A DNA stretch of 64,000 nt from assembly GCF_000226215.1 (NCBI RefSeq), contig NZ_AGFF01000007.1:310001-374000 (forward strand). The letters are read 5' to 3'. A program made the position numbers and the translations under genes. Shown here in pieces: positions 6,760-63,453 of the stretch; position 1 is the first letter of the stretch, and each line of letters opens with the position of its first letter. The stretch comes from Dietzia alimentaria 72. GTDB taxonomy: Bacteria > Actinomycetota > Actinomycetes > Mycobacteriales > Mycobacteriaceae. The notes beneath the pieces were generated by a model, which did not search any database, had not been told where the DNA came from, and was given only the letters and a program-made list of their open reading frames with translations.

Positions 6760-6810
6760 CCACCATCTCATGGCGTCGTTCCAGCCGCCAGCAATCATGA
6801 GGAGTCCGTC

Positions 6811-8541: not shown

Positions 8542-8560
8542 AGCCAGCGTATCCAGCCTC

Positions 8561-8680: not shown

Positions 8681-8778
8681 GACGGGGCTTGTGCTGGCAC
8701 GCCGCTCGGAGGAGGCGGACTCGTCGTCGTCACCATCTCCGGCCGGGCAGCCGCCGGCGGTGGCAAGGCGAGCCCGCG

Positions 8779-17432: not shown

Positions 17433-17433
17433 G

Positions 17434-18285: not shown

Positions 18286-18295
18286 GGGGAGAGAC

Positions 18296-25645: not shown

Positions 25646-25647
25646 CT

Positions 25648-26190
25648 GTGCCAGTGAAGAACCCTGACCGACGCGGTGGCCCGTCCGGCCTCGTGGTGGT
25701 GGCGACAGTCATCGCGGTTCTCGCGCTGATAGCGGCGCTCGTAGCGGGCGGACTGTGGCTGTCCGAACGCGGCAAGGCCGATTCCGTTCGAGCGGAACGT
25801 GCCTCGGCTACGGAGCTCGACGCAAACTATCGCGACTTCGCGAAGGGCGTCATGACCGACCTGATGACTATTCGTCAGGACACGCTCAAAGAGGATGTAG
25901 ACAAGATTGTCGGCAAGATCGAGGGCGACTTCTCCGAGCAATTCGCCCCACGGCGTGACTCCTACGAGGAGGTCGTCAAGACCACCAAGGTCGCGGCGGA
26001 GGGCACCGTGAGCGCGGCGGCGGTAGAAACATCGGACCCAGAGCAGGCACAGGTCATCATGGCAATCGATCAGACTATCGCGAATCCACGGTCGAAGGAT
26101 GGCGAGGATCGCCAGTACCGGATCCGAGTAACGGTCAACCGGCACGACGACGGCGTCATGAAGGTGTCGGGGGTGAACTTCATCCCGTGA
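25648..26190 (+). CDS. mas4A: Mce4-associated membrane protein Mas4A
   Basis: 180 residues: a short cytoplasmic start, one membrane helix (about 14-37), and an exported domain. It begins with GTG two bases after the mce4F stop. Mas proteins flank mce operons and are thought to support Mce complex stability; this corresponds to Rv3493c by position. Confidence 0.8.
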   Translation: MPVKNPDRRGGPSGLVVVATVIAVLALIAALVAGGLWLSERGKADSVRAERASATELDANYRDFAKGVMTDLMTIRQDTLKEDVDKIVGKIEGDFSEQFAPRRDSYEEVVKTTKVAAEGTVSAAAVETSDPEQAQVIMAIDQTIANPRSKDGEDRQYRIRVTVNRHDDGVMKVSGVNFIP

Positions 26191-27014
26191 GCAACGACTA
26201 CAAGGATGAGATGCCCGGGGCCACAGAGTCCTCCAGCGGTCCGGGAGGTTCGGACATCCGAAGCTCTCGCCGGGCGCAGCGTGCAGCCGAACGTGCAGCG
26301 CGCACACAGCGCAAGGCCGACGCGGCCCGGCAGCGCGCCGTTGACGCAGCCCGAGCGGGGGGTCTCTTTGAGGGCATGGATGCGATGCCGCAGACCGATG
26401 CTTCGCCGACCGGTCGCCAGAGCGCACAGCGTCCGCCGCATGGGGGCGATGATGCAGGGAAACCACAGCCCGTGCCGCACGGAGAGAGCACGGACGCGGA
26501 GTCGCCCGCGACTCCGGGTTGGCTCGTCCCGGTTCTCGCCGCCGCGACGGTGATCTTTCTCGTTCTCGCCGGATTAGCGACGTGGGGGTACATCGAAGCC
26601 CGCGACGACACGGCGCTCGAGCAGGCCATCGCGGCCGCCCCGCAGGACGCCACGAACGCCGCTCGCGACATCACCACCCAGATGTTCAGCTACGACCATC
26701 AGACGGTGGATGCCGACCTCGCAGCGGTCCGGGAACAGCTCACCGACCCGGCGTTGTCCGAGTTCGTCGAGACGTCGATGCCCGCCGTGGCCTCCGCAGC
26801 CAAGCAGCAGGAAGCCACAGTCTTTGCGACGGTCGCCGCAGCGGCGACTGAAAAAGTTGTGGACGAAAACCACGTGACGGTGCTCGTGATGCTCAACCGG
26901 ATGGTCTCGACCAAGGATGAGCCGAAAGCGGCCAGCTCGGCCTCACGGCTACTCGTCGACATGGTCCGTGGTGACGACGGGCAATGGAAGCTGGGCAAGC
27001 TCTCGTCACTGTGA
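26187..27014 (+). CDS. mas4B: Mce4-associated membrane protein Mas4B
   Basis: 275 residues. A basic, Ala/Arg-rich N-terminal helix (SRRAQRAAERAARTQRKADA) likely forms a cytoplasmic coiled coil. One membrane segment (about 112-132) is followed by an exported NTF2-like domain. It starts with GTG over the mas4A stop (GTGA). Equivalent to Rv3492c by position; ends the operon and converges on otsA. Confidence 0.8.
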   Translation: MSNDYKDEMPGATESSSGPGGSDIRSSRRAQRAAERAARTQRKADAARQRAVDAARAGGLFEGMDAMPQTDASPTGRQSAQRPPHGGDDAGKPQPVPHGESTDAESPATPGWLVPVLAAATVIFLVLAGLATWGYIEARDDTALEQAIAAAPQDATNAARDITTQMFSYDHQTVDADLAAVREQLTDPALSEFVETSMPAVASAAKQQEATVFATVAAAATEKVVDENHVTVLVMLNRMVSTKDEPKAASSASRLLVDMVRGDDGQWKLGKLSSL

Positions 27015-32896: not shown

Positions 32897-34159
32897 ATGC
32901 ATGTGCGCATTCTCGTGATCGGTTCCGGTGCCCGTGAGCACGCCATCCTCGTCGCCCTCGCTGCGGATCCAGCGGTGACGGACCTCCACGCCGCGCCGGG
33001 TAATCCCGGCATGGTGCAAGCGACGTGTCATGACGTCTCAGTGACTGATCCCGCCGCTGTCACCGCGCTCGCACGGAGGATCGAATCAGATCTCGTGGTG
33101 ATCGGCCCCGAGGTTCCCTTGGTGGCGGGCGTGGCCGACGCTCTTCGTGCGGCCGGTATCGCGGTGTTCGGGCCATCCGCGGAGGCCGCCCGTATCGAGG
33201 GATCCAAGGCTTTCGCCAAGGACGTGATGGCCGCGGCGGGCGTCCGCACAGCGCGCGCCGAGATCGTCGATTCTCCCGCGGATCTCGACGATGCCCTCGA
33301 CCGCTTCGGCCCCACGTGGGTGGTCAAAGACGACGGGCTCGCGGCGGGCAAGGGAGTCGTGGTGACCCCCGATCGGGCGGCTGCCCACGCCCACGCGTTG
33401 TCCTGCCTGGACGACGGCCATCCGGTGCTCCTGGAGTCGTTCCTCGATGGCCCCGAGGTGTCCCTGTTCTGCCTGGTAGACGGCGAGACGGTCGTACCGC
33501 TCCTGCCGGCCCAGGACCACAAGCGCGTAGGCGAGGGCGATCGTGGGCCCAACACCGGGGGTATGGGGGCCTACACTCCTCTGCCCTGGCTGCCGGAGGG
33601 CATGGTCGAGCGGATCGTGACCGAGGTCTGTGAGCCGGTGGCCCGCGAGATGGTCGCCCGTGGGTGCGGGTTCTCCGGACTGCTGTACGCGGGTTTGGCG
33701 ATCACCGCCGAGGGGCCCGAAGTGGTGGAGTTCAACTGTAGATTCGGCGACCCCGAGACCCAGGCGGTTCTCGCACTGCTGGAGTCCCCGCTGGGTGAAA
33801 TCCTGAACGCGGTGGCCACCGGCCAGCTCGCGGGGCAGCCGCCTTTGGTGTGGAGGGACGGATCTGCAGTGACCGTGGTGTTGGCGGCTGAGCACTATCC
33901 GGCCACGCCGCGTCGGGGCGATCTCGTCGAGGGTTCAGAGCAGCCCGGTGTCTTCCATGCGGGCACCTCGCGGGACTCCGAGGGCCGCTTGGTCTCGGCG
34001 GGAGGTCGCGTGCTCTCCGTCGTCGGCACCGGCGACGATCTGGCGGGAGCGCGTGCAGAGGCGTATCGGATACTCGACGGCGTGTTGCTCCGGGGCGGGC
34101 ATTTCCGACGCGACATCGGGCAGGCAGCCGAAGAGGGACGCATCAGCATCCCCGGCTGA
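32897..34159 (+). CDS. purD: Phosphoribosylamine-glycine ligase PurD
   Basis: 420 residues, ATP-grasp. [12 protein letters not shown] opens the N domain, APGNPGM follows, and [14 protein letters not shown] and [12 protein letters not shown] are the family signatures. Second step of purine synthesis. Start ATG 32897, with an alternative GTG two codons later. The other pur genes of the window lie far downstream, so the pathway is dispersed. Confidence 0.95.
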
Positions 34160-42583: not shown

Positions 42584-44014
42584 GTGACCGTCAAGCCGCG
42601 CATCTCCAACGTCCTCGCCTCGCGCTACGCGAGCGCCGACCTGGCCACCCTGTGGTCCGCCGAGTACAAGATCGTGCTCGAGCGTCAGCTGTGGATCGCG
42701 GTGCTTCGCGCCCAGCGTGACCTCGGCATCGAGGTGCCCGACGGGGTGATCGAGGCCTATGAGGCCGTGGTCGAGGAGGTCGATCTGGACTCGATCGCCG
42801 ACCGTGAGCGGGTCACCCGCCACGACGTGAAGGCGCGCATCGAGGAGTTCAACGCGCTCGCCGGTTACGAGCACGTGCACAAGGGCATGACGAGCCGGGA
42901 CCTCACCGAGAACGTCGAGCAGCTACAGATCGTTCGCTCGCTGGAGCTCGTGCGCGACCGCGGTGTGGCCGCCGTCCGCCGTCTGGCAGAGCACGCCGTC
43001 GCCCACCGCGACACCGTGATGGCCGGGCGCAGCCACAACGTCGCGGCCCAGGCCACGACCCTCGGCAAGCGATTCGCTTCTGCGGCCGACGAGCTGCTCG
43101 GGGCTCTCGAGCGGGTGGAATCGCTGCTGCAGCGCTATCCGCTGCGCGGCATCAAGGGCCCTATGGGCACGGCCCAGGACATGCTCGACCTTCTCGGCGG
43201 AAACGCCGCCCAACTGGCGGAGCTTGAGAACCGGATCGCCGAGCACCTGGGCTTCTCCCGCACCTTCGACTCGGTCGGCCAGATCTACCCACGTTCCCTG
43301 GACCACGAAGTCGTCTCCGCGCTGGTGCAGCTGGGCGCCGGGCCGTCGTCCCTGGCCCACACCATCAGGCTCATGGCCGGGCACGAGCTCGTCACCGAAG
43401 GTTTCCAGCCCGGCCAGGTGGGCTCGTCGGCCATGCCGCACAAGATGAACACCCGCTCCTGCGAGCGGGTCAACGGTCTTCAGGTGGTGCTGCGCGGGTA
43501 CGGCTCGATGGCGGCTGAGCTCGCGGGTGCGCAGTGGAACGAGGGTGATGTGTTCTGCTCCGTGGTCCGTCGCGTGGCCCTGCCTGACGCGTTCTTCGCG
43601 CTGGACGGCATGTTCGAGACCTTCCTGACTGTGCTCGACGAGTTCGGTGCGTACCCCGCGGTGATCGATAAGGAACTCCAGCGGTATCTGCCATTCCTGG
43701 CCACCACCAAGGTCCTCATGGCCGCGGTGCGCGCGGGGGTCGGCCGCGAGGTCGCTCACGAGGCGATCAAGGAGAATGCCGTCACCGTCGCACTGGCCAT
43801 GCGCGAGGAGGGCCGCGAACCCGACCTCATCGATCGCCTCGCCGCCGACGACCGGCTGCCGCTGGACAAGGCCGCGCTTGAGGAGGCATTGGCCGACCGC
43901 GCCGCGTTCGTGGGCGCGGCCGCCGACCAGGTCGACGCGGTCGTGGCGAGGGTCGAGGCGCTGGTGGCGCGGCACCCGAAGGCGGCGGGATATGCGCCGG
44001 GTGCGATTCTCTGA
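42584..44014 (+). CDS. purB: Adenylosuccinate lyase PurB
   Basis: 476 residues of the fumarase/aspartase superfamily. The signature loop GSSAMPHKMNTRSCER and the segment HKGMTSRDLTEN are intact. Converts SAICAR to AICAR and adenylosuccinate to AMP. Starts at GTG 42584. Converges on nuoN, with 22 bases between stops. Confidence 0.95.
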   Translation: MTVKPRISNVLASRYASADLATLWSAEYKIVLERQLWIAVLRAQRDLGIEVPDGVIEAYEAVVEEVDLDSIADRERVTRHDVKARIEEFNALAGYEHVHKGMTSRDLTENVEQLQIVRSLELVRDRGVAAVRRLAEHAVAHRDTVMAGRSHNVAAQATTLGKRFASAADELLGALERVESLLQRYPLRGIKGPMGTAQDMLDLLGGNAAQLAELENRIAEHLGFSRTFDSVGQIYPRSLDHEVVSALVQLGAGPSSLAHTIRLMAGHELVTEGFQPGQVGSSAMPHKMNTRSCERVNGLQVVLRGYGSMAAELAGAQWNEGDVFCSVVRRVALPDAFFALDGMFETFLTVLDEFGAYPAVIDKELQRYLPFLATTKVLMAAVRAGVGREVAHEAIKENAVTVALAMREEGREPDLIDRLAADDRLPLDKAALEEALADRAAFVGAAADQVDAVVARVEALVARHPKAAGYAPGAIL

Positions 44015-44036: not shown

Positions 44037-45470
44037 CTAGGGAAGCAGGAGCTCCCACAGCAGTCCGCCACCGATCCCCAACGCGAGGATTCCGCCCGCG
44101 CCGACGAGGGCGGTGAGGTACCCGGACCGCCGCACAGTCGCGCTAGTACCCGACCCGCCCGCGGCGCGGTCGGGTGTGAAGGCGGGGGCCAGCCAGCGCA
44201 GGTAGTAGAACAGGCTGGCCACGGTGTTCACCGCTGCCACCACCGTGAGCCAGGCGAACCCGCCGTCCCAGGCCGCCGAAAAGGTGGTGAGCTTACCGAG
44301 GAACACCGCCGTCGGCGGAGTCCCCACCAGGCTCAGCAGGCTGACGGCCAACGCCACCGCAAGCAGTGGGTTCCGGCTCACCAGCCCCCGGTAGTCCGAT
44401 AGCACACGGAGTTGGGGCACCGCGGCGATCACCGCGAACGCGGTGATGTTGGTGACCGCGTACCCCGCCAGATAGAGCAGCAGTGAGGGTGCCGCCAGGT
44501 CACTGAGCCCAGCGACCGCGACTGGCAGCAGGAGGTAGCCGACCTGGCTGATCGTCGACCAGCCCAGTAGTCGACGCGGATCGTCCTGCAAGAAGGCGGC
44601 GAGGTTGCCCAGAGTCATCCCCACGGCCGCCAGGACCGCGACGAGCATCGACCATTCGATGCCGGGGGAGACCTCCTCGAGAAACCGGTAGATCGCGATC
44701 ATCCCGCCGACCTTGGGCACCGTGGTCGCATAGGCGGCCGCCCAGGTGCTCGCCCCCTGCGCGGCATCGGGCACCCAGTAATGGGCGGGCACCGCCCCGG
44801 CTTTGAACAGCAGACCGCCGAGGACGGCCACGACGCCAAACGCGATGATCACCGGGGAGACGGCGGGCAGGGCACGCGCGAGCTCGTCGTACTCCGTGGC
44901 TCCGCCGGCGCCGTACAGGACGGTCACCCCGAGGAGAAGTCCGACACCGAACAGGGCACCGAGCAGGTAGGTCTTCAGGGTCGCCTCGGCGGATTTCGAG
45001 GTGCGGCTCAACCCGATGATCGCGTACAGCGGAATGCTGGCCAGGAAGAAGCCGACGGTCAGCACCAGCAGGTCGGTGGCACCGGCCATCACGAGGGCCC
45101 CGAGGGCGGCGAGCAACAGCAGCGAGTAGGCCTCGCTCTCGCGCTCGTGACCGCGTAGTTCATCGATCCCGAGGGTGATGACCAGCAGGGTGGCTCCCGC
45201 GATGATGAGGGCCGCCACCGAGGTGGGCGTGTCCACGGCGAACGTGTCGGAGAATACGCGCCGGGGTGATCCGGCGAGCGCGGCGACCGCGGCCGCGGCG
45301 CTGCCCAGCAGGGCGGTGATGGCGATCAGGCGCGCGACCAACTGCCGGTGGCGGGCCAGGAACGACCCCGTCAGCAGGGTGAGCACGGCGCCGGCGAACA
45401 GCGCGAGAGCCATCGCCATCGCCAGCGAATCGGAGGCCATGTTCATGCCGGTGGTCATCTGCGCGTCCAT
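44037..45470 (-). CDS. nuoN: NuoN-like antiporter subunit of a complex-I-like system
   Basis: 477 residues with about fourteen membrane segments. The half-channel lysine is kept in GLLFKAGAVPAHYWVPD. The normally conserved glutamate of helix 5 (E133 in E. coli NuoN, within GIELISLPL) is replaced: here the segment reads VGFFLASIPLYAI. Last gene of the nuoA...N-type cluster, one base from nuoM. Assignment as NuoN is by position in the order L-M-N and overall pattern. Confidence 0.85.
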   Translation of the reverse strand: MDAQMTTGMNMASDSLAMAMALALFAGAVLTLLTGSFLARHRQLVARLIAITALLGSAAAAVAALAGSPRRVFSDTFAVDTPTSVAALIIAGATLLVITLGIDELRGHERESEAYSLLLLAALGALVMAGATDLLVLTVGFFLASIPLYAIIGLSRTSKSAEATLKTYLLGALFGVGLLLGVTVLYGAGGATEYDELARALPAVSPVIIAFGVVAVLGGLLFKAGAVPAHYWVPDAAQGASTWAAAYATTVPKVGGMIAIYRFLEEVSPGIEWSMLVAVLAAVGMTLGNLAAFLQDDPRRLLGWSTISQVGYLLLPVAVAGLSDLAAPSLLLYLAGYAVTNITAFAVIAAVPQLRVLSDYRGLVSRNPLLAVALAVSLLSLVGTPPTAVFLGKLTTFSAAWDGGFAWLTVVAAVNTVASLFYYLRWLAPAFTPDRAAGGSGTSATVRRSGYLTALVGAGGILALGIGGGLLWELLLP

Positions 45471-46955
45471 CTAGCGGCTGACCAAGTGCGTCACGGTCAC
45501 GGCGGCGGGCTCGATGACCGCGAGCAGTGGCCCGGGGACCACCCCGATGACCAGGGAGAGCAACAGCAATCCGCCGATGGGTACGGCCTCGTGCACGCGG
45601 ACATCGGCGAAACCGACCGAGCCGCCCTGCGGCGGGCCGGCGAGGATCGCCTGCACGGCGCGGAGCAGGACGGCGGCCATGAGGACGATCCCCGGAAGCG
45701 CGATCGCCGCGAACGCGGTGACGCCGATACTGCCGGTGAAGATCTGGAACTCGGCGATGAAGCCACTGAAGGCGGGAATGCCCAGAGAGGCGAACGCCGC
45801 CACGGCGAACAGCCCGGCGTAGCGGGGCGCGGTCGACGCCAGCCCGCCGAACCGCGACATCTCGTAGGTCCCCGCACGATCGCGGAGCAGCCCGGCCAGC
45901 AGGAACAGCGCGGCCGTGATGAGGCCGTGGCTGACCATCTGCACCATCGCCCCGGTCACGGCGATCTCGCGGGCCCGGGTCGCCGAATCGACCAGGATCC
46001 CGGCCGCGCCGACCGCGAGGACGATGTAACCCATGTGGTTGACCGAGGTGTAGGCGACCATTCTCTTGACGTCGCTCTGCGCCAGCGAGACGAGGGCGCC
46101 GTAGAGCACGGAGACGATGCCGACCGCGACGATCACCCACGCCCAGGCTTGCCACGCCTGTGGGAGTAGTGGCATCGCGATGCGCACGAACCCGTAGGTC
46201 CCCATCTTCAGCAGCACCCCGGCCAACACCGCCGAGCCGACGGCGGGAGCGTCGGTGTGCGCGGGCGGCAGCCAGGTGTGGAACGGGACGGTCGGGGTCT
46301 TGACGGCCAACCCCAGCAGGATGGCGGCCATCACCAGCCCCCCCGCCAGGCCGCGGCCAGCGAGTGGGTCGGCGCGCGCGAGTTCGACCATATCGAAGGT
46401 GTGTGGGTCGGCGGCCAGGTACAGACCGATGAACCCGAGCAGTAGCGCCAGCGAGCCGAGGAAGGTGTAGAGGAAGAACTTCAGGGCCGCTCGGCGCGCG
46501 TTCCCATGACCCCAGCCGGCGATGACGAAGTACATGCCCACGATCGACAGGTCAAAAAAGACGAAGAACACCAACAGGTCCTGGGCGGCGAACAACCCCA
46601 GGCACGTCGTCTGTAGAGCGAGTAACAGTCCGGCCTGGCCCCGGGGCCGGTCACGTTCACGAAGTGCGTAGATCGCGCACGCGAAAAAGACGATGTTGGT
46701 CAGCGCCACCAGCGGAAGTGACAAGCCGTCCAGCCCGACGTGGTAGCTGCTGCCCACCGTGGGCATCCACTCCAGTCGCTCCTCGAATGCCAGGGTCCCG
46801 CCGCCCTCGTGGCCGGCCCACAACCACACGGTCAGTCCGAGCTCGGCAGCGGTGACCGCGATCCATCCCCACCGCGCCACGACCCGGGCCGATGCGGGGA
46901 GGGCGGCGATCGCCAGCGCGGCGATGAGGGGAAGGAAGATGACGACGCTGAGCAC
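45471..46955 (-). CDS. nuoM: NuoM-like antiporter subunit
   Basis: 494 residues, about fourteen membrane segments. VKTPTVPFHTWLPPAHTDAP is a classic NuoM sequence with the channel lysine. The helix-5 acidic residue, glutamate in E. coli NuoM (E144), appears as aspartate in FFDLSIVGMYF. Separated from nuoL by two bases. A proton-translocating module of the membrane arm. Confidence 0.9.
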   Translation of the reverse strand: MLSVVIFLPLIAALAIAALPASARVVARWGWIAVTAAELGLTVWLWAGHEGGGTLAFEERLEWMPTVGSSYHVGLDGLSLPLVALTNIVFFACAIYALRERDRPRGQAGLLLALQTTCLGLFAAQDLLVFFVFFDLSIVGMYFVIAGWGHGNARRAALKFFLYTFLGSLALLLGFIGLYLAADPHTFDMVELARADPLAGRGLAGGLVMAAILLGLAVKTPTVPFHTWLPPAHTDAPAVGSAVLAGVLLKMGTYGFVRIAMPLLPQAWQAWAWVIVAVGIVSVLYGALVSLAQSDVKRMVAYTSVNHMGYIVLAVGAAGILVDSATRAREIAVTGAMVQMVSHGLITAALFLLAGLLRDRAGTYEMSRFGGLASTAPRYAGLFAVAAFASLGIPAFSGFIAEFQIFTGSIGVTAFAAIALPGIVLMAAVLLRAVQAILAGPPQGGSVGFADVRVHEAVPIGGLLLLSLVIGVVPGPLLAVIEPAAVTVTHLVSR

Positions 46956-46957
46956 GT

Positions 46958-48871
46958 TTACCTCACGATCAACACGAGTAGGAGGGCGGCGGAGCCGCCG
47001 ATGACGGCGTGGACGTAGTAGTGGTGCAGTTGGCCGGTCTGCACCCGGGGGACCCGCGCACCGAGTTCGCGGGCGCCCCGGGCGAAGCCCTCCACCGCGC
47101 CGTCGACCACGTGAGTGTCAACGGACGCGAGGCGCTGACCCGCGCGGGTGGTCGCTGCCGCGGTGGCGACGACGACGCCGTCGACGGCCCCGTCGTCGAG
47201 ACGGGCCAGTTGCGAGGCCGCCGCCGTCACCGTGGAGCCGGTGGCGTGGACGGCGCGGTCGAGGCCGCGGTCGTCGACGCGGGCCAGCGCACCGGCGAGG
47301 GCGAGGGTCGGCCGGGTCACCAGCGTGCTCGTGGCCCGACCCAGCCCGAGCCACCGGGACGCCCACGCCGGTTCCGGCGTCCCGAACCGGAATACCAGGC
47401 CGACGACAACGAGCGCCAGCGCCGCCGAGGCGACCAACTCGATGGCCCCCGGGGCCGGTGGGGCCTCGAGCCCGATCGCGTCCGTGACGGGGCCCGCCAC
47501 CGCGGGTAGGACGAGCAGTCCGAGGACGCCGGCACCGGCCGTGAGCGGAACGAGCGGGAGCTGCTGCCACACGGTGATCTCACGAGTGCCCGCGGTCTCG
47601 GTGTCGTACGCGGGGTGCTCCGCGATCGCGTCCCACGCGACGAGCAGTATCTTTCCCGCATACGCGGCTGAGAGCCCGGCGGCCGCCAACCCCACCACGT
47701 ACAACGCCGGCGCGTCGGCGAGAGCGGCGGCGAGGGCGTGATCCTTGGTCGCCCACAGCGACAGCGGCGCCACGCCGGCCAGGCTCAGCGCACCTACCGT
47801 GAACATCGCGCCCGTGACTGGCCACCGCCGGGCGGCACCCCGGAGCGCGTCGAGTTTCTTGGTGCCCAGCGCCGAGAGCCACGCGCCAGCCACCAGGAAC
47901 AGCAGAGCCTTGGTCGCGGCGTGGGCGAGCAGATGCGCGGCGCCGCCAGCGACCGCGCCCAGCCCGGCGGCGAGCACGACGAATCCCAGCTGGGCCGCGG
48001 TCGACGCGGCGAGCACCTGTTTGAGATCGCGCTGCGCCACCGCGACCGCGCCCATCAGCAGCGCGGTGCCCGCCCCGATCCACGCGCTCACGGGGCCGGC
48101 CCATCCGGTCGCCTGGAGCAGCGGCGCGGAGCGCAGCAGCAGGTAGCCGCCCATGGCGACCATCGCCGCCGAGTGCAGGAGCGCGCTGACCGGGCTCGGG
48201 CCCGCCATCGCCCGCGAGAGCCAGAACGAGAAAGGCAGCTGCGCGGCCTTCCCCAGAGCGGCCACGAGGACCCCGGCCGCGACGACATCGCGGTAGCCCG
48301 GCGGGAGCTCGCCCAGACCGTCGATCGACAGCGTGCCCCCGCCCGCTAGTGCTGCGCCCGCGGCCAGGTATAGGCCCAGGTCGGCGGTACGGGTGGTGAG
48401 GAAGGCGGTGAGGCCGGATGAGACCCGATCGGGGTCGGCGTGGTGAAAACCGATCAACGCATAGGACGCGGCTCCCATCACCTCCCAGGCGAACAGCAGG
48501 GCCGGGAGGGTGGTGGCCGTCGCGGTCGCCATCACCGCAGCGAGGAAGATCAGCATCAGCCCGTGGAACCGCGACCGCGGGACCATGCCCTCGGCTGCGG
48601 CATAGCCGATCACCAGCAGGGACACCGCCGCCACCGCGACCACCACCGGGGCGGACAGGCCGTCGACGGCGAGGCTGAACGTGCTGCCCGCTACGAACGG
48701 TGCCGCGACCGAGGGTTCACCGGCGGCGACCGCGAGCGCGAGCCCGAGAACAACGGCGGCCGTCGCCACCGCCACCGGAACCGCGACGCGCTCGAGCGCC
48801 CGGCCGCCGAGTGCCAGTAGTGCGCCCAAGGCGGCGGGGACGGCGACGACGGCCCAGAGCAGCGCGGTCAT
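46958..48871 (-). CDS. nuoL: NuoL-like antiporter subunit
   Basis: 637 residues. FAWEVMGAASYALIGFH keeps the helix-5 glutamate. LGKAAQLPFSFWLSRAMAGP keeps the lysine, although the usual H/Q-TW portion is altered, and PVSALLHSAAMV keeps the histidine. The C-terminal TGQLHHYYVHAV precedes the last helix, as in true NuoL with its lateral helix. ATG 48871 overlaps nuoK (ATGA); the long upstream extension of the frame is not coding. Confidence 0.9.
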   Translation of the reverse strand: MTALLWAVVAVPAALGALLALGGRALERVAVPVAVATAAVVLGLALAVAAGEPSVAAPFVAGSTFSLAVDGLSAPVVVAVAAVSLLVIGYAAAEGMVPRSRFHGLMLIFLAAVMATATATTLPALLFAWEVMGAASYALIGFHHADPDRVSSGLTAFLTTRTADLGLYLAAGAALAGGGTLSIDGLGELPPGYRDVVAAGVLVAALGKAAQLPFSFWLSRAMAGPSPVSALLHSAAMVAMGGYLLLRSAPLLQATGWAGPVSAWIGAGTALLMGAVAVAQRDLKQVLAASTAAQLGFVVLAAGLGAVAGGAAHLLAHAATKALLFLVAGAWLSALGTKKLDALRGAARRWPVTGAMFTVGALSLAGVAPLSLWATKDHALAAALADAPALYVVGLAAAGLSAAYAGKILLVAWDAIAEHPAYDTETAGTREITVWQQLPLVPLTAGAGVLGLLVLPAVAGPVTDAIGLEAPPAPGAIELVASAALALVVVGLVFRFGTPEPAWASRWLGLGRATSTLVTRPTLALAGALARVDDRGLDRAVHATGSTVTAAASQLARLDDGAVDGVVVATAAATTRAGQRLASVDTHVVDGAVEGFARGARELGARVPRVQTGQLHHYYVHAVIGGSAALLLVLIVR

Positions 48872-49170
48872 CGCGACAGGTCCGTGGCCATGTCGGTCAT
48901 GTCCGCTCCGCGCACACGGTGGTAGAGAATCGCCACGGCGAATCCCATTGCCATCTCCACGGTCATTGCGGCCAGGATCACCAGTAGCAGCACCTGCCCC
49001 TGCGGTACGGGAGCCAAGTACCACCACATCGCTGCTGCCGCCAAGATGATGCCGTTGATCATCAGCTCCAGGCCCATCATGATCATCACCACGACCTGCT
49101 GGGACAACGCGCCATAGAGACCGACGGCAAACAGCGCCGCAGCCACCACCAGAACGGTTTCGAGCGTCAT
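48868..49170 (-). CDS. nuoK: NuoK-like subunit
   Basis: 100 residues, three membrane helices. Both conserved membrane glutamates of NuoK are kept, in MIMMGLELMINGI and in AAMTVEMAMGFAV. Four-base overlaps with both neighbours. Suggests the proton-coupling E-channel is functional. Confidence 0.92.
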   Translation of the reverse strand: MTLETVLVVAAALFAVGLYGALSQQVVVMIMMGLELMINGIILAAAAMWWYLAPVPQGQVLLLVILAAMTVEMAMGFAVAILYHRVRGADMTDMATDLSR

Positions 49171-49760
49171 CGGCCCAGTCCTCCGCGCCGGGAATCCTGT
49201 GCGGGGCGGCGCCGCAGGTCGTCGCCGAACCGCTGATACCGGCCGCTGGGCAGCGTCAGGACGAGGCCGGCCACGATCGTCGCGAAAAGGACCGCGCCGA
49301 CCGTCATCATCACCAACATGTGTGGGCCCATGATCGCCTCGCCGAGCGCCGCTGTCCGGTCTGCCCGCGGCCCGGGCAACTCGCGACTCTCGGCGGGCCA
49401 GGGGACGAGCACGGCGCCCGCGGCTAATGCCAGGAAGACTGCAACCGAGATCCCCACGGCGCCCTTGTTGTTGTGCACCATGCTCATGGGCATCAGGGCC
49501 GGGTTCATCCCCATGAGCATGATCATGAAGATCGCCATGATGGCCATCTCCATCACCATCATCAACACGGTAATGAGGCCGATGTAGTCAAGCCTGAGCA
49601 GCAGCACGGCGCCGCCGACCGCGACGAACGAGATCGCGAGTGCGTAGGTCGCCCGGGCCATGGAGTCCACGCGGAACACCGCGATCCCTGCGACCACCGC
49701 GATAACGGACAATATCCAGAACGCGATGGCTTCCGGCACGGACGCATCAGGTACGGGCAC
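49167..49760 (-). CDS. nuoJ: NuoJ-like subunit
   Basis: 197 residues, five membrane helices. Helix 3 region LLRLDYIGLITVLMMVMEMA corresponds to the canonical NuoJ pi-bulge helix but carries an added acidic residue and an unusually methionine-rich run afterwards (about twelve methionines in 45 residues). Lies three bases after nuoH. Confidence 0.88.
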   Translation of the reverse strand: MPVPDASVPEAIAFWILSVIAVVAGIAVFRVDSMARATYALAISFVAVGGAVLLLRLDYIGLITVLMMVMEMAIMAIFMIMLMGMNPALMPMSMVHNNKGAVGISVAVFLALAAGAVLVPWPAESRELPGPRADRTAALGEAIMGPHMLVMMTVGAVLFATIVAGLVLTLPSGRYQRFGDDLRRRPAQDSRRGGLGR

Positions 49761-49763
49761 GGC

Positions 49764-50696
49764 TCACCCTCCTAGGACAACGACGGATACGACGAGCAGC
49801 TGGACCAGGGCCACCGGCAGCAGGATCAGGAACCCGACTTCGGCGAACCGGTCAGGTCGGATCGCCGGTAGGAGACGGCGCAGGCCGACAAACACGGCGA
49901 GCAGCGCGACGGACTTCATCAGCGTCCAGACCCAGGCCGGCAGCAGGGGGCCCGCTCCGCCGCCCAGGAACAGCGTCACAGCGAAAGCGGCCCCGGCGGT
50001 GAGCAGCGCGTAGCGACCGGCGAGCAACAGCAGCCGGTCCACCCCGGACAGCTCGCTCAGCACACCCCCGGACAGATCCGCACCTGCCGGCGTGGAGAAC
50101 GGCCCCCACACCGAGAACGCGATCACGCTCACGCAGAACACGAGGAACGCCACCGGCATCCAGACAACGAACCACAGGTCCTGTTGAGCCAGCACGATGT
50201 CGCCCACCCGCAGACTGGCGGCGGCCACGACAGGTGCGGTGAGCGCGAACATCAGGGGCAGCTCGTAGGACAGCGCCTGCGCGAGGAAGCGATATCCGCC
50301 GATCAGCGAGTGCGCGCTGTTCGCCCCCCATCCGGCCAGCCACACGAGCGCCCAGATCGCCACGTCCATCGCGTTGAACCAGACCACGCCTGCGGGCATA
50401 TCGGACAGGGTCCACACGCCGAAAGGTATGACTGCGATCTTGAGGAGGGCGACGACGACGAGGCCGGCACCACCGACACGCCACAGCACGAGGTCGGCCG
50501 AGACCAGACGTCTGCGACGTTGCCGGAGCAGCCGTGCGGTCTCGTCGAATGGCCTGAGCAGTCCCGCAACCATGGGCGCTCCGACGGATCGTCGCCTGGC
50601 CGCGCCGTCCACGCACGCACCCGCGGTGGCGAGGACGAGGACCAGCGCGGCCGCCGGGACAGCCCACCCCGCTCCGACCTCGATGATCTCAGACAC
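49764..50696 (-). CDS. nuoH: NuoH-like subunit, divergent in the quinone region
   Basis: 310 residues with about eight membrane segments. SLIGGYRFLAQALSYELPL is well conserved. The N-terminal R-x-QxRxGPNRVG-type loop is replaced by an Arg-rich RQRRRRLVSADLV. The PFDLPEAExEL motif that lines the quinone path reads PFSTPAGADLSGG, losing the glutamates. Overlaps the NuoB/D-like gene by eight bases. The changes suggest altered quinone or partner contact. Confidence 0.85.
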   Translation of the reverse strand: MSEIIEVGAGWAVPAAALVLVLATAGACVDGAARRRSVGAPMVAGLLRPFDETARLLRQRRRRLVSADLVLWRVGGAGLVVVALLKIAVIPFGVWTLSDMPAGVVWFNAMDVAIWALVWLAGWGANSAHSLIGGYRFLAQALSYELPLMFALTAPVVAAASLRVGDIVLAQQDLWFVVWMPVAFLVFCVSVIAFSVWGPFSTPAGADLSGGVLSELSGVDRLLLLAGRYALLTAGAAFAVTLFLGGGAGPLLPAWVWTLMKSVALLAVFVGLRRLLPAIRPDRFAEVGFLILLPVALVQLLVVSVVVLGG

Positions 50697-51846
50697 GGTC
50701 GCGCTTCTTCGTGCGCAGCAGCGGAGCGCACCCTGCGACGACCATCCGCGCCGACGCGATGTCCAAGCCCACGACGCGTTCGGCGAGAGAGGCGGGTGAG
50801 GACGGTGTCACGGGCCGAGGCGTGGAGCCGGCGTCGAGTATGTGCTGCGCCTCTCGCAGCCAGGACGCAGGTCGGGTGAACAGGTTGACCTCGGAGCCCC
50901 CGTGATCCGGCACCGCAAGCCCTCGCAGCGCCCACCGCAGGCTGCGGCTGCGACTGATCCGATCGGCGGTTCTACCGATGTCGCCCGCGCAGCGAGCCGT
51001 GGAGTCCGAGCCAAGCAGCGCGTCCCGGTGTCGTCGCGCGGCATCCGCGGCCGCGTCCCAGCCCGCCACGGTCAGCAGCCGTGCGGCGTCGTCGCAGTAC
51101 CGGGCGGCGTGCCATCGAGGGGCGACGTCGTCGTCGTCGGAGGGCCGGTCGTCGTCGCCGCGGCGGGTGGGCTCGTGGTCGGCGTCGGACCACTCGGCGT
51201 CGGCGGTGACGATCAGGTCGCCGTTGAGGGTGCACCGCAGCACGAGCGTTGCCGGCCAGTGTGCGAGGACGGGCCCGAGGGGGACCGTCAACGCGTCGAG
51301 TGTGAGCCCGTCGTGGTCTTCGGACTGCTCGGCCAACGCTATGCCGTTCGGCGCCATCTCCATGTCATCGTGGTCCGTGTGGCTGTGGTCCATATCGCCG
51401 TGGCCCATTTGCTCGTGACCCGTGCTGACGTCGTTCGCCTCGTCGCCGTCGTCGTTCCCCTCGTCGTGAGTCCCCGGGTCATTCTCGGGTTCGGGAGGGC
51501 CCGGGGGGCGGTCGCGTGTGTCGCGGCGTTGCTCGTAGTCGTCGGCGAGAAGCTGCGCGGCTTGGGCCAGAGCGAACTCCACACCCGTCGGCGAATGTAC
51601 GGATGCGCGCGCGCGTGGGCCCGGCATCTGTTCCCACACGCGGTCGATCGCGGCCGTCAGCTGCGGGCCCGGGTTGCCGCACACGAGCAGGATGTCGGCC
51701 TCTGCTGGGGAGAGGGCCGCGCTCCACCCGCGGCCCGTCAGCGCGCGTTCGGTAAGCATGCGTAGGCGCGCCGAGCCGGGGCTCTCCACCACGAGGACGT
51801 GCGCAACCCGGACCGCGCGGCGCGCCAACAGCGTTCCTATACCCAC
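50689..51846 (-). CDS. NuoB/NuoD-like fusion protein without iron-sulphur ligands
   Basis: 385 residues from GTG 51846 (gagaggggg upstream; ten-base overlap with nuoA). Residues 10-85 resemble NuoB: SPAEADILLVCGNPGP then IDRVWEQMPGPRARASV align with the DVxIVxG...YDQMPEPxWVxSMG part. The CC pair, the later C and the CP that bind cluster N2 are absent. Residues 105-180 are acidic and His-rich (GHGDMDHSHTDHDD). Residues 185-215 (GPVLAHWPATLVLRCTLNGD) recall the NuoD start (GPQHP...LRLVLELDGE) without the quinone-site histidine. The C terminus is weakly NuoD-like. Positioned exactly where nuoB-nuoC-nuoD normally lie. Homology is inferred by eye and needs profile searches. Confidence 0.6.
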   Translation of the reverse strand: MGIGTLLARRAVRVAHVLVVESPGSARLRMLTERALTGRGWSAALSPAEADILLVCGNPGPQLTAAIDRVWEQMPGPRARASVHSPTGVEFALAQAAQLLADDYEQRRDTRDRPPGPPEPENDPGTHDEGNDDGDEANDVSTGHEQMGHGDMDHSHTDHDDMEMAPNGIALAEQSEDHDGLTLDALTVPLGPVLAHWPATLVLRCTLNGDLIVTADAEWSDADHEPTRRGDDDRPSDDDDVAPRWHAARYCDDAARLLTVAGWDAAADAARRHRDALLGSDSTARCAGDIGRTADRISRSRSLRWALRGLAVPDHGGSEVNLFTRPASWLREAQHILDAGSTPRPVTPSSPASLAERVVGLDIASARMVVAGCAPLLRTKKRDRV

Positions 51847-52187
51847 CTCAGCGCCCCCTCTCGCCAGGCCCACACGACGCCGACCATGAGCACGCCGAGG
51901 AACACGAACATCTCGACGACCGCGCTGATGCCGACGTCCGCCACGACGACCGCCCACGGGTACATGAAGAGCATCTCCACATCAAATGCGAGGAACAGCA
52001 CGGTGAGCGGGTACCAGCGCGCGTGGTACCGGGACAGGGCGTGTTCGCTGGGGCGCCAACCGGACAGGAACGGCAGTGACGTCAACGGTTCAGAGGCGAC
52101 GGCAGCGCGCCGCGCGACCACGTAGAGCAGGAGAACCAGGACGAAGGACGACGCCAGCATGGCGAACGCGCCCAGGTATGTGCCCAT
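51837..52187 (-). CDS. nuoA: NuoA-like subunit
   Basis: 116 residues, three membrane helices. RYHARWYPLTVLFLAFDVEM followed by LFMYPWAVV is the canonical NuoA signature, including the acidic pair. aaaggag precedes the ATG. First gene of the cluster; 90 bases separate it from the multicopper oxidase upstream on the same strand. Confidence 0.9.
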   Translation of the reverse strand: MGTYLGAFAMLASSFVLVLLLYVVARRAAVASEPLTSLPFLSGWRPSEHALSRYHARWYPLTVLFLAFDVEMLFMYPWAVVVADVGISAVVEMFVFLGVLMVGVVWAWREGALRWV

Positions 52188-52277: not shown

Positions 52278-53771
52278 TCACCGGGCCAGAATCGTGCCCA
52301 TCATCCCGAGGTCCTCGTGGTCCAGAATGTGGCAGTGATAGACGGTGCGGCCGACGATGTCGCCGAACGCGACGCGGACGGTGACGCGGCCGAAAGCGGG
52401 GATGTTGACCACGTCCTGCCAGATGGGGCTAGCGCCCTCGTCGACGACCTGCATAGGCCAGACATGCAGGTGCATCGGATGGTCCATGGGGCCGGTGTTG
52501 GTCAGGGTCCATTCCTCCACAGTTCCGGAGCGGACGGTGATGTCGGTCCGGCCCGCGTCGAACTGTTGATCGTTGATGGTGAACGACATCATTGATCCGC
52601 GCCCACGCGCGCCATCCCTCATCCCGCGGGCTCCTCCCATGCCCATGCCGAATGCGAGGGTCCGCGTTTGAGTGACGGGCTCGGTACGCAGATCCCGTAG
52701 AGCGGGGCCCGTGGGTACGGGGTCGAGAGCCGCTGCCGCGGTCCCGGTGACCTCCAGATCGACGAGCTCGATCGGCTCGTCGCGTGTGCTGGGGGCGCCG
52801 GCCATAGGGCCGCCCATCATGCCGGGCATGGTGCCACGATTCACCGGGGTGGCGAGCAGGATGGAGATGCCTCGGCGGGTCTCCACGAGCAGATCGACCC
52901 TGTTGCCGGGAGCGAGCGTCACGTCGGTGACGTCGACCGGCCGGGCAAGGCGACCGGTGTCACGGCTCAACAGGCTGAGTGTCTGACCATCTAGGGTCAA
53001 ACGTAGGTAGCGCGACGGGCAGGCGTTGACGATCCGCCACTGCTCCCGCCCACCCGGCGCTGCGGTCGCATGGGGCCGGACCTGGCCGTTGACCAGGACG
53101 GTCTGGCCCTCGCGGCCCATCATTTTCTCCGGCGGAGACGCGGCAGCCGGGTTGCCGTTCCTGTCGAGGGTGATGTCGGAGATGACCAACGTGCGCTCTC
53201 GGGAGACCGGTACAGGGACGGGGTCCTCGACGATGATCGCCCCGTAGAGCCCGGCGGCGAGTTGGTCGGCGACATAGCCGTGCAGGTGTGGGTGATACCA
53301 GAATGTGCCGGGTGGGTGGTCGTCCGGCAGGACGAACTCGTAGTCGAAGCTCCCGCCGGGATCGATGCTCACAAACGGATTGTCGCCGTTGTCTTCGGGC
53401 GAGACATGAAGTCCGTGTACGTGCAGGTTGGTTGGCGCATCGAGTTGATTGGCCAGGGATACGCGAAGCGTATCTCCAGCTCGCACCCGCAGGGTCGGGC
53501 CGGGCAGAGTGCCGTTGAACGCATGCACGTCCGCGTTCCGACCGCCGATTCTGACCCGTGCGGTGGCGGCCACCAGGCCTATCTCGAGCACGCCGTCGCG
53601 ACTGGCCAGGACGTCCGGTTCCAGGAGGTCGTCGTCGGTGCCGGTGAAGCCACCACCGGACGTGGTGTCGCCCTCACGGGCAGTCCACCACAGGCCTGCC
53701 CCGCCCACGGCCGCCGTGCCGGCGCCTGCGAGCCCGACGGCGAGGAGTTGCCGGCGTGTCAGTTGGCTCAC
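52278..53771 (-). CDS. Tat-exported multicopper oxidase
   Basis: 497 residues. The twin-arginine signal LTRRQLLAVGLAGAG is at the N terminus. The four copper motifs are NLHVHGLH, TFWYHPHLHG, HPMHLHVWPM and HCHILDHEDLGMMG, so the T1 and T2/T3 centres are complete. Methionine/glycine-rich loops (GTMPGMMGGPMAG, MGMGGARGM) resemble those that bind Cu(I) in CueO and mycobacterial MmcO. Likely a copper-detoxifying cuprous oxidase outside the membrane. ATGA overlap with the SHOCT gene upstream. Confidence 0.92.
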   Translation of the reverse strand: MSQLTRRQLLAVGLAGAGTAAVGGAGLWWTAREGDTTSGGGFTGTDDDLLEPDVLASRDGVLEIGLVAATARVRIGGRNADVHAFNGTLPGPTLRVRAGDTLRVSLANQLDAPTNLHVHGLHVSPEDNGDNPFVSIDPGGSFDYEFVLPDDHPPGTFWYHPHLHGYVADQLAAGLYGAIIVEDPVPVPVSRERTLVISDITLDRNGNPAAASPPEKMMGREGQTVLVNGQVRPHATAAPGGREQWRIVNACPSRYLRLTLDGQTLSLLSRDTGRLARPVDVTDVTLAPGNRVDLLVETRRGISILLATPVNRGTMPGMMGGPMAGAPSTRDEPIELVDLEVTGTAAAALDPVPTGPALRDLRTEPVTQTRTLAFGMGMGGARGMRDGARGRGSMMSFTINDQQFDAGRTDITVRSGTVEEWTLTNTGPMDHPMHLHVWPMQVVDEGASPIWQDVVNIPAFGRVTVRVAFGDIVGRTVYHCHILDHEDLGMMGTILAR

Positions 53772-54019
53772 CCCGGACCTTGGTCGAGGTTGTGTAGACG
53801 TTCCCGGTACTCGTCGGTGCTCAGCTCTCCGCGCGCGTACCGCTCATCGAGGATGCCTAGTGGACCCGCGCGGTGGTCCTCTCCCGGGGGATGTGCGCTG
53901 CGGCCACCCGTTAACGCCTTCATCACCACAGCCGCGACCACCACTGTTCCCAGAATCAGCAGGACCCAGAACACCCATGACCAGCTCATGCCGAAGTTCA
54001 TCCCGTGGCTTCCCATCAT
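53768..54019 (-). CDS. SHOCT-domain single-pass membrane protein
   Basis: About 83 residues. A Met/His-containing start (MMGSHGMNFGMSWS) may bind metal. One membrane helix follows (VFWVLLILGTVVVAAVVM), then a C-terminal SHOCT motif (GILDERYARGELSTDEYRER). ATG 54019 is preferred among three tandem ATGs because ggagg lies six bases away. It overlaps the multicopper oxidase gene by four bases; a copper-response role is inferred. Confidence 0.75.
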   Translation of the reverse strand: MMGSHGMNFGMSWSWVFWVLLILGTVVVAAVVMKALTGGRSAHPPGEDHRAGPLGILDERYARGELSTDEYRERLHNLDQGPG

Positions 54020-54198
54020 CATGATCCTCCGCAGCAGACTCCATCGTTCAACAATCCACGTGTCAGGCTGGCAGACGATCACGCGCGTTCGTGTGGAGAT
54101 CGTGTGAAGGTCTGCTCAAGATCTCGCCCCCGAGACGTGCACCCTCCGGGTCGTCGAAGTGCGGAATTCGGGCGCTGGAGGCGGCTAGTGTGACGCCC

Positions 54199-61152: not shown

Positions 61153-63453
61153 GTGACCACTCCTGTCGATTCCACCGCGAACGCCGCCGCCACCCCCGAC
61201 CTGGAGCAGCCGTGGGCCGAGCTCGGCCTCAAAGAGGACGAGTACGCCCGGATCCGCGAGATCCTCGGCCGACGCCCCACTGACGCGGAACTGGCCGTCT
61301 ACTCCGTCATGTGGTCCGAGCACTGCTCGTATAAGTCCTCCAAGGTGCACCTGCGCTACTTCGGTGAGACCACGACGGAGGAGATGCGGTCCTCGATGCT
61401 CGCCGGTATCGGCGAGAACGCCGGCGTGGTGGACATCGGTGACGGCTGGGCGGTGACCTTCAAGGTTGAGTCCCACAACAGCCCCTCGTACATCGAGCCG
61501 TACCAGGGTGCGGCGACCGGCGTGGGCGGGATCGTCCGCGACATCATGGCGATGGGCGCCCGCCCGGTGGCCGTGATGGATCAGTTGCGATTCGGCCCCG
61601 CCGACGCCGATGACACCCAGCGTGTCCTTCCGGGCGTGGTGGCGGGGATCGGCGGTTACGGCAATTGCCTGGGGCTTCCCAATATCGGTGGCGAGACGGT
61701 CTTCGACTCCTCGTACGCCGGTAACCCGCTCGTCAACGCTCTGTGTGCCGGGGTCATGCGGGTCGAGGACCTGCACCTCGCGTTCGCGTCCGGAAAGAAC
61801 AACCGCATCATCTTGTTCGGCGCCCGCACGGGTCTCGACGGAATCGGCGGTGTCTCGGTCCTGGCCTCGGAGAGTTTCGCCGTCGACGAGGACGGAGTCC
61901 CGGTCAAGCCCCGCAAGCTTCCCAGCGTTCAGGTGGGCGACCCGTTCGCGGAGAAGGTGCTCATCGAGTGCTGCCTCGAGCTTTACCGTGACGACCTCGT
62001 GGTGGGCATCCAGGACCTCGGCGGTGCAGGCTTGGCCTGTGCCACGTCCGAGCTCGCGGCCGCGGGCGACGGGGGCATGCACATCGTCCTGGACAACGTC
62101 CCGCTGCGCGCCGAGGGGATGACCGCGGCCGAGATTCTCTCGAGCGAGTCGCAGGAGCGGATGTGTGCTGTGGTGGCGCCGGAGAACGTCGAGGCGTTCA
62201 TGGAGGTGTGCCGTCGCTGGGACGTGCTGGCCAGCGACATCGGCGAGGTCACGGACGGCGACAATCTGACCATCGAGTTCCGGGGTGAGATCGTCCTGGA
62301 CGCGCCGCCGAGCACGATCGCCGACGAGGGCCCGGTGTATGAGCGGCCAGTTGAGCGGCCCGCCGACCAGGACGCCCTCCAGGCGGATACCACGGCGAAC
62401 CTGCCGCGTCCGTCCACCGGTTCAGAGCTGCGGCAGACGCTGTTAGACATGGTCTCCAGCCCGGCACTCTGCTCGCGCGCTTTCATCACCGAGCAGTTCG
62501 ACCGTTACGTCCGCGGCAACACCATCCTCGCCGAGCACGCGGACGGCGGGGTGCTGCGACTCGACGAGGAGTCCGGCCGCGGTATCGCGCTGTCGACCGA
62601 CGCCTCGGGCCGCTACACGCAGCTGGATCCGTACACCGGTGCCCGCCTCGCGCTGGCGGAGGCGTACCGCAACGTCGCCGTCACCGGCGCCACCCCGGTC
62701 GCCGTGACCAACTGCCTCAACTTCGGTTCGCCTGAAGACCCGGGGGTCATGTGGCAGTTCCGTGAGGCCGTCCACGGGCTGGCTGACGGGTGCGCCGAGC
62801 TGGGCATCCCCGTCACCGGCGGCAACGTGTCGTTCTACAACCAGACCGGCACCACTCCGATCCTTCCGACCCCCGTCGTGGGCGTTCTCGGTGTGATCGA
62901 CGACGTGGCCCGCCGCACCCCCACCGCGTTCGGGGACACCCCGGGCGAGAGCATCTATCTACTGGGCGAGACCCGCGATGAGCTTGACGGTTCGATCTGG
63001 GCCCAGGTCGCCCACGACCATCTCGGCGGCACGCCCCCGGTGGTCGACCTGAAGTGGGAGGCCACGCTCGCTCGGATCCTCGCCACCGCGTCCAAGGACG
63101 GTCTCATCTCCGGCGCCCACGACCTGTCGGAGGGCGGCCTCGCCCAGTCGCTGGTCGAGTCGGCGCTGGCGGGGGAGTGCGGTATCCGTGTGGTCCTGCC
63201 GGGGGACGCCGACCCGTTCGTGTGGCTGTTCTCCGAGTCTGCTGGCCGCGTCGTCGTCTCGGTCCCGCGCGGCGAGGAGATCCGTTTCCAACAGATGCTC
63301 ACCGCCCAGTCCATCCCGCACACGCGCGTCGGCGTGACCGACACGGATGCGGGCACGTTCGAGGTGCAGGGGCAGTTCACGCTGACCACCGAAGAGCTTC
63401 GTGCAGCGCACGAGGGCACATTGCCCGCCCTGTTCGGAGTGGACCCCGTCTGA
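61153..63453 (+). CDS. purL: FGAM synthase large subunit PurL
   Basis: 766 residues, the small-type PurL that works with PurS and Pur[49 protein letters not shown] and [14 protein letters not shown] are conserved. GTG start at 61153. ATP-dependent conversion of FGAR to FGAM. Confidence 0.95.

Follow-up and report, generated by a model that had tools for sequence, protein, structure and literature searches.

A redox-free relative of complex I linked to copper genes in Actinomycetota, a candidate ion-driven translocator of a soft metal

Known Relatives of Complex I

The coupling of electron transfer to pumping in complex I (nuoA-N) is a long-standing question. Among the relatives that work without redox chemistry are Mrp antiporters, which make redox-free use of NuoL/M/N-type channels, and Dab-type CO2 concentrating complexes, which are thought to use the proton-motive force (pmf) for a non-redox task. 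Here, we describe another arrangement, the gene cluster A-X-H-J-K-L-M-N, found at 44037-52187 of a 64,000-nucleotide stretch of Dietzia alimentaria 72 DNA (contig NZ_AGFF01000007.1, positions 310,001 to 374,000; hereafter the window), in which seven genes belong to nuo families and the eighth encodes X, a fused NuoB- and NuoD-like protein. The cluster is genetically linked to copper genes, and this linkage is well supported. Judged from sequence comparisons and predicted folds, the cluster would encode a redox-free complex I relative that acts as a pmf-driven translocator, most likely an exporter, of Cu(I) or a similar soft metal, a reading to which we assign a probability of roughly 0.55.

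Similar to complex I, the cluster encodes A, H, J, K, L, M, and N subunits, alike in kind and order, together with B- and D-like domains, which are fused in X. The membrane arm keeps most of the channel Lys and Glu residues, the exceptions being NuoN K217 (65/91 copies) and E133 (lost). The main differences between the cluster and complex I are the absence of the NADH module, conserved Fe-S cysteines, and the quinone-site histidines, the presence of a metal-binding-type insert in X, and rows of methionines in J, K, and A. In complex I, NuoB provides four cysteines for cluster N2, whereas the NuoB-like stretch of X aligns with NuoB without any conserved cysteine. Redox-free use of the channels is shared with the Mrp antiporters, from which the cluster differs in its separate tree groups and in retaining A, B-like, D-like, and H subunits; the eight cluster genes scanned with Pfam match families other than MrpE, F, and G, or none, no profile of these three having been run. 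An Mrp antiporter identity was rejected on a quick tree, in which L, M, and N branch with Nuo rather than Mrp. The group 4 [NiFe] hydrogenases and formate hydrogenlyases (Hyf, Hyc) carry CxxC Ni-Fe ligands and differ from the cluster in their L/M/N branching as well; a hydrogenase identity was rejected since X has no conserved cysteine for Ni-Fe or Fe-S. The Dab complexes have a different gene set, and no DabA-type match was present among nine locus proteins scanned. The P1B-ATPase CopA and the resistance-nodulation-division (RND) system CusCBA are copper exporters, with methionine relays in CusA and heavy-metal-binding domain (HMBD)-type domains in some. The cluster shares copper loci with them, but its subunits are of complex I families, not P-type ATPase or RND.

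The closest described genes are those of the "partial NDH-1 operon". In Salinispora, seven nuo genes were presented as a second, partial NDH-1 operon with a proposed role in Na+/H+ movement for marine life (PMC3314556), and in Kocuria a partial NDH-1 operon was named nuoAHJKLMN and interpreted as pumping sodium or protons, with one nuo copy given for Kocuria polaris CD08-4 (PMC6002675). This strain, the one compared here, corresponds to locus L107, which has the full A-X-H-J-K-L-M-N set. The word copper is absent from the main text of PMC3314556, the relevant passages of which do not mention X, and in the relevant passages of PMC6002675 copper is not tied to the nuo genes and X goes unmentioned. 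The original prediction, which was made from the letters of the window, had ranked the cluster as the best candidate in the window for an undescribed system; this holds for X and the copper link, as far as these passages go, and not for the seven nuo genes. Among the matches listed by a literature search, which covered titles and abstract openings and did not extend to subscription papers and preprints, none described a copper-linked nuo cluster. The cluster lies within the complex I superfamily, and its function is probably new.

Gene Organization of the Cluster

The cluster comprises eight intact open reading frames (ORFs) on the minus strand, and the transcription unit probably starts two genes upstream of nuoA, with a SHOCT protein first and a multicopper oxidase second, both on the same strand. 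The ten genes, in the direction of transcription, are as follows.

53768..54022, minus strand: small Met-rich membrane protein with a SHOCT domain (PF09851, E 1.5e-6); 4-base overlap with the next gene
52278..53771, minus strand: multicopper oxidase with three Cu-oxidase Pfam domains; ends 90 bases before nuoA
51837..52187, minus strand: NuoA-like subunit (PF00507, E 2.8e-25); M72, M75, H49, and H55 clade-specific, E71 conserved
50689..51846, minus strand: X, NuoB-like domain, linker, and NuoD-like domain fused, as judged from profile comparison and predicted fold
49764..50696, minus strand: NuoH-like subunit (PF00146, E 3.8e-46)
49167..49760, minus strand: NuoJ-like subunit, Met-rich (PF00499, E 5.4e-12)
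48868..49170, minus strand: NuoK-like subunit (PF00420, E 1.7e-11)
46958..48871, minus strand: NuoL-like antiporter subunit (PF00361, E 2.2e-46)
45471..46955, minus strand: NuoM-like antiporter subunit (TIGR01972, above cut-off)
44037..45470, minus strand: NuoN-like antiporter subunit (PF00361, E 5.5e-51)

From nuoA to nuoN, the intergenic gaps are -10, -8, +3, -4, -4, +2, and 0 bases. Pfam assigns A, H, J, K, L, M, and N to nuo families, leaving X as the only unnamed protein of the eight. The best NCBIfam profile for the multicopper oxidase is CueO (E 1.5e-52), at 179 bits, below the cut-off of 525. The original prediction of a reduced, eight-gene, complex I-like cluster with all seven membrane-arm subunits, with nuoC, E, F, G, and I missing at the locus and one odd protein standing in for B and D, agrees with this organization: the genes are intact, ordered, and tightly packed, X is NuoB-like and NuoD-like by profile and predicted fold, and neither NuoC, E, F, G, nor I was found among the cluster proteins scanned with Pfam (of these five, the genome-wide searches covered F). 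Its conclusion that the complex cannot be an ordinary NADH:quinone oxidoreductase also stands, as the NADH module is missing and the electron path lost.

A separate full nuo operon, for which the prediction had suggested a search, was rejected for the nearly complete window genome (G000; 3.35 Mb, 39 contigs, completeness 99.99%), in which the NuoD (PF00346), NuoF (PF01512), and NuoB (PF01058) families have no match. A full operon elsewhere is thus very unlikely, and the strain is very probably without an ordinary complex I. Besides the cluster, the genome has two antiporter clusters labeled Mrp-type, and two CsoR-type genes are present elsewhere in it.

X, a Fused NuoB- and NuoD-Like Protein

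The start codon of X is most likely the GTG at 51846 rather than the one at 51957, and the protein is composed of a NuoB-like domain (residues ~1-112), a His/Met/Asp-rich linker (~113-170), and a shortened NuoD-like domain (~170-382). Neither Pfam nor NCBIfam gave a match to X at E 0.001, and its NuoB-like and NuoD-like nature rests on profile comparison and predicted fold. The relation to NuoD was reached through the longer, f32-type X proteins and the predicted fold; comparing the alignment of 95 X sequences with NuoD by hhalign returned a probability of only 2.3, and Foldseek alone found nothing for X at E < 0.001 (best 1.8e-3). X evolves fast, with a mean column identity of 22%, and is annotated in plasmid records as "hypothetical protein" or "DUF4779".

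No cysteine is invariant or nearly invariant in alignments of 15 and 95 X sequences, which argues against an Fe-S relay, and 4 of the 112 complete X sequences contain no cysteine whatever. The histidines of the quinone-site motif of NuoD, GPQHPxxHG, are also replaced, the corresponding stretch reading GPVLAHWPATL in the window X and GPLFPGLPxGL in the f32 type. Between the two halves, a His/Met-rich linker (at least 10 His/Met per 40 residues) is observed in 72/96 X sequences and in 0/22 canonical NuoB/NuoD pieces, some of which are partial or repeated. An HMBD occupies this position in 5/95 sequences (best E 2.1e-27). In the X of L148-L150, L155-L157, and L160, a Gly/Met-rich stretch (GVGPxGxGGEGMMGG-like) replaces the His-rich linker.

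Channel and Quinone-Side Residues

Residue conservation in the membrane subunits is given in E. coli numbering, and the scored residues are taken to have the roles that they have in complex I (proton channel, E-channel, or quinone side). In NuoL, E144, K229, H254, K305, H338, K342, and K399 are kept in 91/91 copies. In NuoM, K234 (90/91), K265 (89/91), and E407 (88/91) are retained, and the position of E144 is occupied by Asp in 83/91. NuoN keeps K158 (88/91), K247 (89/91), and K395 (90/91); K217 and E133 are the exceptions given above. The original prediction had noted that NuoK and NuoA keep their acidic residues and had taken ion transport to be still intended. Both observations are borne out: the channel glutamates of NuoK are present in 94/94 (E36) and 92/94 copies (E72), the NuoA acids in 96/96 (E81, which is E71 in the window) and 92/96 (E102), and L, M, N, and K retain their channel residues for the most part. 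Among the E-channel acids of NuoH, E228 is conserved in 92/94 and E220 appears as Asp in 86/94, whereas D213, E216, R291, and E71, some of which are quinone-side residues, are mostly changed. Two further replacements are complete, Y59 of NuoJ by Met and R25 of NuoK by Gln (94/94 each). As read from the alignments, the proton machinery is mostly retained, and several quinone-side residues of NuoH are not.

Methionine Rows in NuoJ, NuoK, and NuoA

Proteins that handle Cu(I)/Ag(I), such as CTR and CusA, commonly carry conserved methionines. The mean Met content of the cluster NuoJ is 9.4% (6.9-11.9, n = 94) versus 3.0% (0.6-5.0, n = 28) in canonical NuoJ from cluster-bearing genomes, such that the two ranges lie apart. 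Eleven methionines of NuoJ (M34, M67, M68, M72, M75, M79, M83, M85, M92, M94, and M148) are found in 94/94 cluster copies and in 0-1 of 29 canonical copies, E. coli NuoJ having been added to the 28. M144 and M151 are Met in 85/94 and 82/94, H96, a histidine that the ordinary copies compared lack, is present in 94/94, and M81 is Met in cluster and canonical copies alike. As visualized in an AlphaFold2 (AF2) model with a mean predicted local distance difference test (pLDDT) score of 71, seven of the eleven (M67, M68, M72, M75, M79, M83, and M85) are located in helix 3 (residues 58-85), M92, M94, and H96 lie in the loop that follows it, and M144, M148, and M151 are in helix 5.

NuoK and NuoA show the same feature, again in helices. 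In NuoK, M29, M31, and M69 (94/94) and M73 (91/94), which are near both channel glutamates, are Met in 0/27 canonical copies. In NuoA, M72 and M75 are Met in 96/96 versus 0/9 canonical copies, and the histidines H49 (90/96) and H55 (94/96) are likewise found in 0/9. In contrast, the cluster H, L, M, and N subunits contain less Met than the canonical copies compared (four of NuoH and three of each of the others), and overall composition thus cannot account for the methionines of J, K, and A.

Copper Genes Beside the Cluster

The genes neighboring 114 cluster loci were grouped without prior choice of families. The neighbors encountered most often were DUF305, P-type metal ATPase, HMA/CopZ, CsoR, a BNR-type lipoprotein, multicopper oxidase, ArsR, and DUF326; these assignments were made by eye and in some cases by Pfam, and plasmid annotation agrees with them. 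Some of the 114 loci represent one genome listed under two names, and after X copies at least 85% identical had been dropped, 96 nonredundant loci remained. At least one of seven copper-linked families flanks 62/96 of these loci and 1/40 control regions, and at least two flank 43/96 and 1/40; the strict set of P-type ATPase, HMA, CsoR, and multicopper oxidase is found at 52/96 loci and again at 1/40 controls. The mean flank is 10.8 kb, and the controls are 40 regions of 20 kb each, taken arbitrarily from genomes that bear the cluster. By family, HMA/CopZ is near 28 of the 96 loci, DUF305 near 27, P-type ATPase near 24, CsoR and multicopper oxidase near 19 each, DUF326 near 18, and the BNR-type lipoprotein near 16. 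CcdA (11/96) and TlpA-like genes (9/96) are not significantly enriched (p 0.11 and 0.28), and SHOCT genes flank 14/96 loci versus 0/40 controls.

Since the seven families had been picked for their frequency near the cluster, 12 further loci, unused in choosing the families, were examined at a looser threshold; 10/12 have at least one copper-linked family, one of the ten (L320) having the BNR protein only. In 16/96 loci, nuoA is preceded on its own strand by a copper-linked gene whose end is at most 200 bases away. Plasmid pC1a of Curtobacterium carries CsoR-type, HMA, and P-type ATPase genes, the last of which ends ~80 bases before nuoA, and in L323 the P-type ATPase, CsoR, and HMA genes and then A-N follow consecutively on one strand. 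Together with pC1a, the annotated plasmids in which copper linkage is plain are Arthrobacter FB24 plasmid 1, Pseudonocardia pPA12743CP, and M. avium pMAH135. DUF305, BNR-type lipoprotein, and DUF326 genes recur beside the cluster (for example, L077:7928-8623, L096:6143-7066, and L160:8371-8778), and their products may be partners of it.

Distribution and Phylogeny

X relatives are present in 14/101 genomes of the order, including the window genome, and 245 were encoded in a scan of genome contigs, the best 80 of which are from Mycobacterium, Mycolicibacterium, Micromonospora, Nocardioides, Cryobacterium, Arthrobacter, Dietzia, Gordonia, Modestobacter, Kocuria, and others. The 114 loci comprise the window, 15 loci from the order, 80 from the contig scan, and 18 from a phylum sample. 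In this sample, a profile of the cluster NuoJ detected 36 places in 35/396 genomes at E <= 1.2e-49; the next match (E 6.5e-21) and all lower ones are assumed to be ordinary NuoJ. L320, which diverges most among these, likewise carries all eight genes and shows the methionine pattern. Hosts include sputum mycobacteria and soil strains, and also Nocardioides and Arthrobacter. X is found on 15 plasmids, every one from Actinomycetota genera, and among 40 of the 170 records of a NuoH search that were listed, all matches of at least 55% are from Actinomycetota. Outside this phylum, the search covered plasmids and the best 80 of the 245 contig-scan relatives; the Met-rich NuoJ profile was applied to Actinomycetota genomes. 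NuoD was found in 13 of the 14 X-bearing genomes of the order, the window genome being the exception, and in those 13 the cluster thus adds to complex I and does not replace it.

The original prediction had named a deep, separate clade with a conserved gene set as support for a distinct system, and such a clade is observed. The exact order A-X-H-J-K-L-M-N is seen in 102/114 loci; 10 others are broken by contig ends, one of which (L152) terminates in an extra NuoA-like piece, and in 2 the L or M gene is split over two frames. This agreement in gene set and order across loci rules out an assembly artifact. In the NuoH tree (25 cluster and 11 canonical rows), the cluster rows fall on one side of a branch with a support of 100/100. 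The L, M, and N trees (91 rows, quick method) each contain a single cluster group, with SH-aLRT values of 98, 100, and 99, and these groups join NuoL, NuoM, and NuoN, respectively, apart from Mrp-type rows and Hyf/Hyc. An Mrp-type identity is therefore not supported. The wider claim that something other than NADH drives the complex stands: a non-NADH driver or gate is needed, and the evidence points to a soft metal.

Two cluster copies are found in Mycobacterium sp. WUMAC-067, M. gordonae CTRI 14-8773, and Arthrobacter echini P9 and AM23 (locus pairs L056/L060, L068/L124, L077/L086, and L080/L102). On an Ornithinimicrobium plasmid (L215), the frames of X, H, K, L, and the adjoining P-type ATPase are fragmented, indicating pseudogenes or sequencing errors.

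Proposed Function and Alternatives

With no electron path, X cannot power pumping by redox as complex I does, and ion-driven metal movement is suggested by the combination of retained channels, a metal-binding head, and rows of methionines. X, possibly loaded by CopZ, would take Cu(I) at the cytoplasmic face and hand it to the methionine rows of the A-J-K core, where protons entering via L, M, N, and the E-channel would force it outward. Ion flow would then drive the core, the reverse of complex I, in which the core drives ion flow. The outward direction is proposed because the neighbors include CsoR, CopZ, CopA, and multicopper oxidase. Copper involvement of the cluster appears highly likely, and transport of the metal itself probable, though less firmly so; we infer the identity of the metal, the direction of transport, and the coupling, and silver or another soft metal is an equally possible substrate. 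The odds are about even that the complex represents a new class of metal pump, an electron-free, reversed complex I with proton-driven Cu(I) passage along the J/K/A methionines and X as the loading head.

Several observations weigh against pmf-driven metal export. The AF2 model of NuoJ is weak, with a predicted template modeling (pTM) score of 0.52, and its helix 3 methionines show no significant one-face periodicity (p 0.058). We know of no metal-sized path across the core of complex I, which leaves the conduit hypothetical. The His/Met-rich linker is missing in 24/96 X sequences, including the distant group L148-L157 and L160. In the fetched flanks of 34/96 loci there is no copper-linked gene, and 21 of these loci have a flank of at least 10 kb; the Rhodococcus pyridinivorans cluster has none within 14 kb. 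The copper families were selected because they are frequent, and DUF305, DUF326, and the BNR lipoprotein are copper-linked by association alone. In the window itself, the multicopper oxidase, accompanied by the SHOCT protein, is the only nearby copper gene, and no palindrome resembling the copper-operator consensus TACCC-N5-GGGTA lies at the operon 5' end; across the window, this consensus has 17 matches with at most 2 mismatches versus 14.3 expected by chance.

Four other functions and decay were considered. Mrp-like machines are antiporters, and with mostly intact channels and a metal-rich X the complex could be a metal-gated antiporter, in which X senses Cu and gates H+ or Na+/K+ flow, so that ion gradients are restored under metal stress without any metal being carried; this is unlikely, although the least so of the alternatives, as it leaves the eleven invariant NuoJ Met columns and those of K and A unexplained. 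Slightly less likely again is a copper importer or loader, in which the pmf brings copper in or hands it to extracytoplasmic cuproproteins. The Met rows suit either direction, and multicopper oxidase, CcdA, and TlpA-like genes are nearby (19, 11, and 9 of the 96 loci), but the CcdA and TlpA-like enrichment is not significant, as stated above, and the neighbors mainly serve efflux, storage, and repression (CsoR, P-type ATPase, HMA/CopZ, and DUF326).

A copper redox enzyme, in which Cu(I)/Cu(II) in X trades electrons with quinone or another donor and protons are pumped, is improbable: X does sit where redox subunits would, and a multicopper oxidase adjoins it in the window, but the NuoD quinone-site histidines and several NuoH quinone-side residues are gone, and X, without conserved cysteines, has no Fe-S relay. 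More doubtful still is the sodium/proton pump for saltwater life proposed for the partial NDH-1 operon. Sodium does not bind thioethers, no redox module is present to energize a primary pump, copper-linked genes adjoin the cluster, and the sputum, soil, Nocardioides, and Arthrobacter hosts stand against the phylogenetic association with marine isolates in the relevant passages of PMC3314556 and PMC6002675. Decay into a non-functional complex I remnant might account for the missing redox subunits and the fast evolution of X; it is scarcely credible and was rejected on the conservation of the channel residues, most of which are kept in >90% of copies, and the gene set and order are fixed across the phylum sample, 15 plasmids carry the cluster, and some genomes hold two copies.

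If metal export by the complex is real, a non-redox site can power the coupling in complex I, which would bear on how redox chemistry and pumping are coupled. The cluster offers a clean test object, with pumping parts mostly intact, no electron path, and a metal-binding subunit at the place of the quinone site, such that any event at the B/D/H/A/J interface must be coupled, as driver or as driven part, to the same ion channels. A proton-driven engine would also join known bacterial copper handling, widespread in Actinomycetota (35/396 genomes) and carried on plasmids, including those of sputum mycobacteria. Plasmid annotation currently calls NuoL a "proton-conducting transporter" and most of the others NADH-quinone oxidoreductase or complex I subunits, and automatic metabolic models may thus wrongly credit strains with an extra complex I.

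Other Features of the Window

Purine genes are located on both sides of the copper unit (54022-44037), namely purD at 32897-34159 and a purL-like AIRS protein at 61153-63453 (both by Pfam), together with an adenylosuccinate lyase-like ORF at 42584-44014, recognized by eye; this suggests insertion into a purine region. Farther away, 16668-27014 holds an mce (Mla-type lipid uptake) set with an MlaE permease and five MlaD/Mce proteins, which would fit a mycolic-acid-type actinobacterium.

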